DNA of 64,000 nt from the NCBI GenBank assembly GCA_947444055.1, contig CANEYR010000010.1, positions 1-64,000 on the forward strand, read 5' to 3'. Source of the stretch: Planctomycetota bacterium. Its GTDB lineage: Bacteria; Planctomycetota; UBA1135; UBA2386. Position 1 is the stretch's first letter; each line of letters begins with the position of its first letter. Below, piece after piece: positions 34,959 through 37,767 of the stretch. The notes below the pieces were generated by a model that was given only the letters and a program-made list of their open reading frames with translations, was not told the origin of the DNA and searched no databases. The translations under genes and the position numbers were made by a program.

Positions 34959-34997
34959 GGGGATCGAACCTTGTAGGTTCGATCCCCACTTTTTTTT
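34959..34997 (+). terminator. intrinsic terminator
   Basis: GGGGATCGAACC (34959-34970) and GGTTCGATCCCC (34976-34987) form a perfect 12-bp stem with a TTGTA loop, followed after two bases by eight T (34990-34997). This is the best intrinsic terminator in the window. It ends transcripts coming from 33234-34760 or a small RNA starting in the 200-base gap, 37 bases before the HD gene. Confidence 0.85.
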
Positions 34998-35034: not shown

Positions 35035-36375
35035 GTGAGCATTCTGCGCGATCCGGTCCACGGCGACATCGAACTCTCCCGCGACGAGCTGCGGCTCGTC
35101 GACACCGTCGAGTTCCAACGCCTGCGTGGCATCAAGCAACTCGGTAGTGCGGCGTTCGTCTATCCAGGGGCGACCCACACCCGCTTCGAACACTCGCTCG
35201 GCACGCTGCACGTCTGCGAACAGTTGCTGCTCGCTTGCAACAAGAACGCGGCGAAGGCGGCGGACTGCTTGCACGTCAGCGAGGTCGAACGGCGACTGCT
35301 GCGCACGGCGGCGTTGCTGCACGACGTCACCCACATTCCGTTCGGTCACAACATCGAAGACCAGACCGGCCTGCTGCCGCGGCACGATGAACCGGAGCGC
35401 TTCCGAGCGATGTTGGGCGACACCGAACTCGGCGCCGAGTTGCAGCGGCAAGGTCTGCGCGACGACGTGCTGGCGATCCTGACGGGCGAAGGCCGCGCGG
35501 TGCCACCGTTCTGGCGGCAGGTGGTGAGCGACACGATCGATGCGGACCTGCTCGATTACCTGCGTCGCGATGCCCACTACACCGGCCTCGAGTTGCGGTA
35601 CGACCGACGGGTCATCGACTACTTCCGGGTCGATAAGAAGAGCGGGCAGATGTTCGTCGACTGCGAGAAGAACGGCATGCTGCGCGAAGACATCGTGTCG
35701 GAGCTGCTGCGGGTGCTCGAGTGCCGCTACCACTTCAGCGAACGCGTCTACTACCACCACGCGAAGATCGCCGCCGGCGCCTTGCTGTCGCGCATGGTGG
35801 AACTCGCCCTGCAGAGTGGGGCGTTGACGGCGAGCGAGCTGCAATCCCTGACCGACGAGTTGCTGGTGTTCCGTCTCGGCGAGATCGAACTTGGCGATGC
35901 CAAAGCCACCGAGCGGTTGCGTCGCTTCGTCGCCAGGTTTCGTCGGCGCGCGCTGCCGAAGCGAGTGTTGGTGTTGCCGCTCTACCAAAACCACGGCGTG
36001 CAAGACGAGCTGCTGCGCACCTACTTCACGCCGGGGCAGCCCGAGGCGCGCTTTCGCTGGGAGGCTGAGATGGAACGGTTGGCGCAGCGCGAATTCGGCC
36101 AGTCGATCGACGTCATCCTCTATTGCCCCAAGCGCCGCATGCAGTTGAAGGAGGCGAAGACGTTGGTGCGCTTCCCGGGCGTGGGGGATCGCACCCTGCC
36201 GCTGGATGCCTTCGCCGAGCAGATTCCGCGGCTGCGCGACTTGGCCGAGAGTTACCCGCGCATGTGGAAGCTCTACGTGTTCACTTCGCTCGAGGACCGC
36301 GCGCTGCGCCGGCGCTTGCAGACGATGTGTATGGAGGCGCTGCCAGCCGGGTCCCGCAACGCGTTCGTGCTATGA
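35035..36375 (+). CDS. HD-domain phosphohydrolase
   Basis: 446 residues from GTG 35035 (SILRDPVHGDIELS); an upstream in-frame start lies within the terminator and is rejected. The HD fold has FQRLRGIKQLG, THTRFEHSLGTLH, ALLHDVTHIPFGH (about 95, the HD metal pair) and DTIDADLLDYLRRDAHYTG, matching the SAMHD1/dGTPase-like class that hydrolyses (d)NTPs or other phosphoesters. It is longer than minimal members and has a C-terminal region of unknown function (LVFRLGEIELGDAK). It precedes the outer-membrane barrel gene by 55 bases on the same strand and may share a transcript. Confidence 0.88.
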   Translation: MSILRDPVHGDIELSRDELRLVDTVEFQRLRGIKQLGSAAFVYPGATHTRFEHSLGTLHVCEQLLLACNKNAAKAADCLHVSEVERRLLRTAALLHDVTHIPFGHNIEDQTGLLPRHDEPERFRAMLGDTELGAELQRQGLRDDVLAILTGEGRAVPPFWRQVVSDTIDADLLDYLRRDAHYTGLELRYDRRVIDYFRVDKKSGQMFVDCEKNGMLREDIVSELLRVLECRYHFSERVYYHHAKIAAGALLSRMVELALQSGALTASELQSLTDELLVFRLGEIELGDAKATERLRRFVARFRRRALPKRVLVLPLYQNHGVQDELLRTYFTPGQPEARFRWEAEMERLAQREFGQSIDVILYCPKRRMQLKEAKTLVRFPGVGDRTLPLDAFAEQIPRLRDLAESYPRMWKLYVFTSLEDRALRRRLQTMCMEALPAGSRNAFVL

Positions 36376-36430: not shown

Positions 36431-37288
36431 ATGCTGCGCGTTCCCCTGATGACCTTGTTGCTGCTGGCGCCGCTGGCCGCGCAACTGGTGACGACGGATG
36501 CGGGAGTGATTTCGCCGGAGCTGCCGACGGTCAAGGAACGGCTCGAATGGTGGTCGCGGGAGCATGCCGACGAACTGCGCGCCATCACGCGCCTGTCGTG
36601 GGCGCCGGAACGGCGCCTGCAGCTCGACCTCGCGGTGCCGTTGGTCGCGCGCACGGTGGCGGTGCCAAGCACCGGCGGCGAATTGCGCGGCCGCCAGGAA
36701 GGACTGGGTGATCTCACGTTCGGCGCCAAGTGGGCGCTCGTGCGTGCCGACGACGTGATGCGTTCGGATCGGCTCTCGGTGCTGGCCGAGGTCTCGCTGC
36801 CGACGGGGGATGACAACGCCTTCGTCGATGGCGTCGATCTGGGACCGCGGGCTGCACTGGGTCTTGGCACGTTCGGTGGCTCGTTGGGTCTTGGCTACAC
36901 GCTCGTGCGCGATCGCCATCGCGCGGCGGTGGCGTTGCGCGGCAGTGCGTTTGCGAGCGACGACGGGTTTGCGCCGGGCGAGGAGCTCGCGCTCGACGTG
37001 GCCTGGTGGGTGCGCTTGTCGCCGCGCGAGTTCTTGCCGGAGCACACGGGCCTCGAATGGCGCGGTGTGCTCGAAGTGCTGTCGCGCTGGCAAACTGATG
37101 ACACGGTGCGTGCAATCGATCAGCAGAACGGTGGTCGCGAGCTGTCGTTCGTGTTCGGTCTGCAAGCCAACCTCAATCTGGCGACCAGTTGTGAAGTGGG
37201 CGTCGTGGTGCCGCTCGACATCACTACGGGTTCACCATTCGGCGAGCCTGACTTCGGGCTGCTCTTCTCGTTCCGGGTGTCCTTCTGA
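36431..37288 (+). CDS. outer-membrane beta-barrel protein (phenol-MetA-like fold)
   Basis: 285 residues from ATG 36431 with a signal peptide (LRVPLMTLLLLAPLAAQL). Alternating hydrophobic and polar strands follow (LQLDLAVPLVARTVAVP, DLTFGAKWALVR, LSVLAEVSLPTGDD, ALGLGTFGGSLGLGYTL), ending in an aromatic C-terminus (FGLLFSFRVSF) as expected for an outer-membrane barrel. The pattern with SLPTGDD resembles the MetA-pathway (PF13557) transporter-like barrels. Its stop TGA shares its last base with the ATG of the selenoprotein gene, so the two are co-translated; it may be the outer-membrane partner of that lipoprotein. Confidence 0.75.
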   Translation: MLRVPLMTLLLLAPLAAQLVTTDAGVISPELPTVKERLEWWSREHADELRAITRLSWAPERRLQLDLAVPLVARTVAVPSTGGELRGRQEGLGDLTFGAKWALVRADDVMRSDRLSVLAEVSLPTGDDNAFVDGVDLGPRAALGLGTFGGSLGLGYTLVRDRHRAAVALRGSAFASDDGFAPGEELALDVAWWVRLSPREFLPEHTGLEWRGVLEVLSRWQTDDTVRAIDQQNGGRELSFVFGLQANLNLATSCEVGVVVPLDITTGSPFGEPDFGLLFSFRVSF

Positions 37289-37767
37289 TGCGTTCCCTCA
37301 GTCTGTTGGTGTGTGCATTGTCTCTCGCGGCCTGTCAGGTCGCGTTGCCCAAGGCCACCGCGGCGCCTGGTCACGGGCTGCAGCGGGTGTGGATCGAAAC
37401 GCTTGGGCTCGAGTGATTGCCTTGAGCAAAGGCCGTGGCCGACGGCCTGCGGCGCCTGGATGGCGTCGCCAATGTGGAAGTGGACCTGCAAGCGAACGTG
37501 TGCACGGTGACGCCGACTCCGGATCGCTTGCCAGACTTGGCTGGGTTCCCTGCGGCCGTGCACGCCGCTGGCTATCGCCCAGCTCGGATGTGGGTGCAGG
37601 TGGTGGGCACGGCATCGGCAGCACCGGATGGGGGCCGACAGTTTCAGATCCAAGGGTCCCCGCTGTGGGTGCGGCTCGTCGGTGATGGGGACGTGACGAA
37701 GGCCTTCGTGGTGCGTTTGGAACACGCTCCGCAGTTGACGTTCGTGCCTGACCGCGCACCGCGCTGA
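37288..37767 (+). CDS. predicted UxxU selenoprotein: HMA-domain lipoprotein
   Basis: A single frame of 159 codons with two in-frame TGA codons, 37414-37416 (codon 43) and 37423-37425 (codon 46). Residues 1-16 are a lipoprotein signal (LSLAAC, C16). From about 36 to 100 the text follows MerP/HMA domains: RVWIETLGLE-U-LP-U-AKAVADGLRRLDGVANVEV, then a strand and an AAVHAAGYRPARM segment. In MerP the site is GMTCAAC followed by the same number of residues to the EGV-KV-V strand, so both TGA codons fall exactly on the two metal-binding cysteines. The frame stays open afterwards to a TGA at 37765. The C-terminal 50 residues form an extra beta-rich part. It is co-translated with the barrel gene. Standard annotation would split it. 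Selenocysteine is inferred. Confidence 0.75.
37430..37448 (+). promoter_or_regulatory. candidate bacterial SECIS stem-loop 1
   Basis: AGGCCGT (37430-37436), loop GGCCG (37437-37441), ACGGCCT (37442-37448): a perfect 7-bp stem with a 5-base loop beginning with G. The loop starts 20 bases after the first TGA and 11 after the second. Spacing and loop G fit the usual bacterial SECIS criteria for the first TGA. In a GC-rich gene, stems arise by chance, so this alone is weak. Confidence 0.5.
37450..37468 (+). promoter_or_regulatory. candidate bacterial SECIS stem-loop 2
   Basis: CGGCGCC (37450-37456), loop TGGAT (37457-37461), GGCGTCG (37462-37468): seven pairs including one G-U, with G at the second loop position. 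The loop starts 31 bases after the second TGA, within the usual 16-37 range. It could serve the second selenocysteine. Confidence 0.45.

Follow-up and report, generated by a model that had tools for sequence, protein, structure and literature searches.

Selenocysteine (Sec)-containing HMA proteins, among them family NF041115 (UxxU_metal_bind), are tabulated as known kinds of selenoprotein, and they exist as scattered predictions only, with neither partner nor cell location described (PMC13188914). The NF041115 model covers 74 residues, lacks a lipoprotein anchor or C-terminal domain, and has no described barrel partner. Another Sec-containing metal-transport protein of the HMA type, MerT_CopZ_Se (NF045683), represents a MerT/CopZ fusion family. 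Among outer-membrane proteins, uptake of hydrophobic molecules has been proposed as the role of the COG4313/PF13557 channels (Pput2725, structure 4rl8; SphA) (PMC4493636). FapF (5o65-5o68), a channel for amyloid subunits, has a common barrel fold with them, and no HMA partner accompanies either kind. The Cus/Czc efflux systems follow a related logic, in which a periplasmic metal binder stands beside an outer-membrane protein.

The window, which is the whole 64,000-nucleotide stretch of a Planctomycetota contig analyzed here, contains a two-gene unit whose component parts, an HMA selenoprotein and a COG4313 channel, are of known kinds. We found no description of a barrel paired with a Sec-HMA protein in the literature searched (mostly without subscription papers), in agreement with an earlier sequence-only reading that thought the pair might be a small undescribed system. 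The features of the locus are as follows.

34959-34987, + strand: perfect 13-bp hairpin followed by a T run, terminator-like, upstream of the HD gene
35035-36375, + strand: HD-domain phosphohydrolase gene (HD and HD_assoc_2), upstream of the barrel gene
36431-37288, + strand: gene for a 285-aa outer-membrane β-barrel with signal peptide (COG4313/PF13557 type)
37288-37767, + strand: Sec-containing HMA lipoprotein gene, 159 aa with UxxU motif
37333-37335, + strand: lipobox Cys16, invariant in 35/35 homologues
37378-37578, + strand: HMA domain (β-α-β-β-α-β), CopZ/MerP fold
37414-37416, + strand: UGA codon for Sec43, a metal-loop position with Sec or Cys in 35/35 homologues
37423-37425, + strand: UGA codon for Sec46, Cys (TGT) in genome G011
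37430-37448, + strand: candidate SECIS of Sec43 (hairpin 1), with stem AGGCCGT/ACGGCCT and loop GGCCG 20 nt past the first UGA
37449-37469, + strand: candidate SECIS of Sec46 (hairpin 2), with stem GCGGCGCC/GGCGTCGC and loop TGGAT 31 nt past the second UGA
37579-37764, + strand: C-terminal β domain of the lipoprotein, without Pfam match

The barrel stop codon (TGA, 37286-37288) and the lipoprotein start codon (ATG, 37288-37290) overlap as TGATG. The proposal that the two proteins are translated together was built on this overlap, whose coordinates are confirmed on the sequence, and it is supported. The hairpin at 34959-34987 is the probable 5′ boundary of the unit; its T run has eight residues and its right arm resembles a tRNA T-arm, so that it may be a terminator or a tRNA remnant. 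The HD gene, which had been thought to share the transcript, is probably its first gene, and only within the window's family. There its position is kept in four relatives, with an ATG overlap between the HD and barrel genes in G011 and G004 and a gap of ~60-80 nt in G001 and G006. Outside the family the HD gene does not adjoin the pair, and we rejected the idea that the phosphohydrolase belongs to the module in general.

With TGA translated as Sec, the lipoprotein reads MRSLSLLVCALSLAACQ...GLE-U-LP-U-AKAVADGLRRLDGV..., and its metal loop, GLE-U-LP-U-AKAV, carries Sec at U43 and U46. The Pfam HMA domain (PF00403) is matched at 33.7 bits (4.8e-8; gathering cut-off 24.8). The residue at position -1 of the lipobox is Gly, Ala or Ser in 34 of 35 homologues and none of the 35 has Asp at +2 after the lipobox Cys; the protein would be anchored in the envelope, probably in the outer membrane. 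The AlphaFold2 model has an overall pLDDT of 85.4, with values of 96-98 in the HMA core, and foldseek places the HMA domain nearest to CopZ and MerP (TM by target 0.8-0.9). The predicted fold and the conserved ligand positions suggest two thiol(ate) or selenol(ate) ligands by which the protein may bind a soft metal.

None of the NCBIfam HMA families that the window lipoprotein matches is matched above its cut-off. It shares the HMA domain and UxxU motif with NF041115, but membership in that family, which has a cut-off of 95 bits, was rejected at a score of 22.9. MerP (TIGR02052) and CopZ (NF047957) are among the closest solved structures and share the HMA fold and the position of the metal loop, but both are soluble proteins with Cys ligands, whereas the window protein is a lipoprotein with two Sec residues and an extra β domain. 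Membership was rejected for MerP (25.5 bits against 92.55), for CopZ (well below cut-off) and for MerT_CopZ_Se (17.4 bits against 375).

Recoding of the two UGA codons to Sec is well supported by the Sec machinery in the genome, by relatives with UxxC and CxxU loops and by conserved, compensated hairpins downstream. The machinery comprises SelA (380.7 bits), SelB, SelD and tRNA-Sec (74 bits), and the SelD gene itself carries an in-frame TGA. Relatives hold both Sec and Cys forms, in support of the sequence-only reading: UxxU in G001 and G006, UxxC in G011 and G122, CxxU in G039 and G171, and Cys-only CxxC forms beside the barrel in G348 and G495. The four features by which bacterial selenoproteins are recognized (an in-frame UGA, a downstream hairpin, Sec machinery and Cys homologues) are all present.

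The loop of hairpin 1 lies 20-21 nt past the first UGA and that of hairpin 2 lies 31-32 nt past the second, a spacing preserved in nearly all UxxU relatives. Among 19 distinct UxxU hairpin sequences, 90% of the cells pair and 38 cells are changed on both sides. The covariation is 0.397, compared with at most 0.148 in slid controls and 0.20 in shuffled ones (0/500 shuffles). Hairpins of the UxU classes described below have a like arrangement with slightly different spacing, and their covariation is 0.288 against at most 0.156. Across codons 48-59, synonymous sites are identical wherever the residue is kept in four relatives with ~55% protein identity. The natural reading is that each UGA is served by one hairpin; in G011 the second UGA is lost and hairpin 2 is nevertheless retained. 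At gathering thresholds, Rfam detects only tRNAs in the window and no SECIS family.

The barrel protein matches Pfam PF13557 at 29.6 bits (9.4e-7; gathering cut-off 22), and its AlphaFold2 model is a β-barrel with a pLDDT of 90.8. DSSP assigns 13 strands to the model, which we counted as agreeing with the 12-stranded fold of COG4313/PF13557. The nearest solved structures are FapF and 4rl8, a Pseudomonas putida F1 channel from COG4313 (TM ~0.7-0.8), and identity to the COG4313 channels and FapF is 13-15%. Neither Cys nor Met is conserved among the planctomycete barrels. The barrel is not a TolC-type factor and the unit itself has no pump subunit, unlike Cus/Czc, although RND genes adjoin some pairs. 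The sequence-only reading would have fallen with a barrel that was a known, unrelated transporter; the family assignment points to uptake of hydrophobic molecules (PMC4493636), and a metal role is neither proven nor excluded by it.

The two genes stay together throughout the phylum. Among 61 relatives searched for barrel orthologues with >50% identity, exactly five genomes have one, each adjoining a lipoprotein gene (one pair is cut by a contig end). Searches with profiles derived from the pair (A2 for the barrel, A3 for the lipoprotein) then covered 154 genomes from the order and 392 from the phylum. In the order, 27/27 testable barrels of this clade, a count that leaves out one further barrel ending at a contig edge, have a Sec-HMA lipoprotein gene after them on the same strand; the distance is no more than 75 nt in 26 cases and 863 nt in the other. 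Across the phylum, a barrel adjoins 27 of the best 30 HMA matches, typically with a gap of <100 nt. The barrel and HMA sets have seven loci in common, which gives ~47 distinct planctomycete loci with the pair. The weaker PF13557 barrels of the same superfamily, used as controls, have no HMA neighbour in any of 27 cases and were rejected as members of the system. Over 34 pairs, the divergence of the barrel tracks that of the lipoprotein (Mantel r of their identities 0.87, at most 0.33 on permutation). The pairing counts, the control barrels and this co-divergence argue against free separation of the two genes, which would have counted against the sequence-only reading.

Exceptions are found in G039, G214 and G345, in which a Sec-HMA protein occurs unaccompanied by this barrel. 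Five genomes (G040, G104, G137, G015 and G028) have the reversed order, with a Cys-type HMA gene preceding the barrel gene. In a plasmid collection the barrel has no match and the lipoprotein has only two weak matches, to P-type ATPases. A scan outside the phylum returned other matches of 29-46% identity and partial coverage, mostly to the HMA region; its patterns were Cys-based and probably missed UGA-coded relatives.

The pair is real and more than chance, and the system is wider than the single two-gene module first proposed. The metal loops fall into several classes: A, to which the window belongs (G[LM]E-U-xP-U); B (GG[IV]T-U-PI-U); C (S-U-I-U-NDKAFGL); and D (G-U-T-U-[NS]EELLG). In classes C and D, a second large group with the UxU motif, the second Sec aligns with Sec43 and the first replaces the residue two positions before it, so that the usual second metal ligand is lost. 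No UxU motif was found in the literature searched, again mostly without subscription papers. A second pair, of class D, is encoded in the window's own genome (G000:C4:13919-15351, L125; motif GUTUSEELLG), and this arrangement recurs in ~ten other genomes of the window's family. Locus L214 is a tandem barrel-HMA-ArsR-barrel-HMA array with one class A and one class D lipoprotein.

Metal genes are absent near the pair at the window locus and in its family. The observation that no MerR regulator or P-type ATPase is nearby therefore holds for the window itself; it does not extend to several relatives, in which such genes adjoin the pair. The richest locus, in G055, contains MerA (504 bits; cut-off 454), CusA/CzcA, a heavy-metal ATPase, MerR-like and CsoR-like regulators and a tandem Sec-HMA-thioredoxin protein. 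MerR-like genes lie upstream of the pair in G196, G449, G204 and G189, an RND gene lies 168 nt upstream in G341, and in G178 an ArsR-type gene separates two tandem pairs. The MerR-like proteins score best against Hg-MerR, yet below equivalog cut-offs, and 4/5 keep three Cys at the positions that we take to be those of Hg-type MerR. Counting MerR, MerA, CusA/CzcA RND and P-type ATPase genes within 2 kb, 6/29 pairs have one compared with 1/27 control barrels (p 0.06), a count favoured at G055 and G178 by query genes drawn partly from these two genomes. In a post-hoc subset, the UxxU classes outside the window's family, the proportion is 6/16 (p 0.007). The metal link of the pair is good, but it comes from a minority of loci.

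The domains, folds, recoding and pairing support an envelope two-gene module with a di-selenol HMA lipoprotein, as the sequence-only reading had it. On balance, we consider that this is probably a conserved envelope unit for soft-metal defence. Such a role is likely, if unproven; the neighbouring genes in some relatives suggest resistance, and MerR-type regulators, MerA and selenium chemistry point to mercury as the likeliest metal. The lipoprotein would hold a soft metal ion between the two selenolates of its HMA loop, and the co-translated COG4313-type barrel would be an outer-membrane channel working with it. Metal would be caught at its crossing of the outer membrane and either passed out of the cell or kept away from thiols. 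Several observations oppose the defence reading. The barrel lacks conserved Cys or Met and belongs to a family whose proposed substrates are hydrophobic, the window's family has no metal genes and few pairs elsewhere have one, the MerR-like scores are below cut-off, and three genomes hold a Sec-HMA protein without the barrel. Sec is also readily oxidized outside the cytoplasm.

The barrel may instead retain its family function and pass, inward or outward, a neutral or hydrophobic metal compound (for example HgCl2 or an alkylmercury), which the lipoprotein would trap at the periplasmic mouth; here the selenols would do the chemistry. We regard this as unlikely, though it agrees with the proposed substrates of COG4313 channels (PMC4493636), with the structural proximity to FapF and 4rl8 and with a barrel free of conserved soft-metal ligands. 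A MerC-like/DF-family protein adjoining the G449 pair also favours it, but the MerC match is below cut-off.

It is still less probable that the lipoprotein is a redox protein, reusing the HMA fold without metal and keeping the barrel or another envelope protein reduced by diselenide or selenenylsulfide exchange. Redox proteins are frequent among bacterial selenoproteins (PMC13188914), the UxU classes lack the second ligand position of canonical CxxC, and Sec-bearing HMA-thioredoxin fusions occur in the same phylum. The UxxU loops nevertheless keep metal-ligand spacing, the informative neighbours are metal genes, and no Cys that could be reduced is conserved in the barrel. It is improbable that the pair acquires copper as a nutrient across the outer membrane: the HMA fold is nearest to copper chaperones and a CopA-like ATPase lies near the G196 pair, but 4/5 adjoining regulators resemble the three-Cys Hg/Zn/Cd type and not CueR, and G055 has MerA. 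That the UGAs are true stops, from a pseudogene or sequencing error, with the pairing incidental, can be dismissed, since the annotation default alone favours it and the frame, Sec positions, spacing and hairpins are conserved across dozens of genomes.

Returning to soft-metal defence, a wider proposal, to which we give somewhat less than even credence, is that these loci form an undescribed class of outer-membrane metal handling across Planctomycetota. It would pair a dedicated channel with an obligate di-selenolate lipoprotein, have mercury or organomercury as its likeliest substrate, comprise two UxxU and two UxU classes and use one hairpin per UGA. A dedicated channel would give Sec-HMA proteins a location, a partner and a testable pathway, and would assign COG4313 channels a metal-related role. 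The family would also supply natural double-Sec proteins with one hairpin for each UGA, and would show that a whole phylum relies on selenium for envelope roles in which thiols are the rule. UxU is itself a new candidate motif for metal loops.

Other HMA lipoproteins were also seen. The window's genome has two adjacent small HMA-like lipoproteins with UxxC loops (DVUGGC and PSUAGC; G000:C146:3125-3573, L264). At L132, L133, L115:11360-12502, L212 and L217, a thioredoxin domain is fused to an HMA lipoprotein or comes after it, with UMGU or ULGU motifs at L132, L133 and L115. Loci L134-L139 encode CopZ-like lipoproteins with one Sec in a GMTUxxxC loop, where Sec and Cys are separated by three residues rather than two. 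At L144 (G151), a Cys-type HMA lipoprotein gene precedes genes for a TolC-type outer-membrane factor and a membrane-fusion protein, ABC-type genes and a barrel-like ORF. At L038:10001-11275 (G039), a CxxU HMA lipoprotein gene follows, in place of the usual barrel gene, a different gene whose 424-aa product has no Pfam match and is porin-like by eye.
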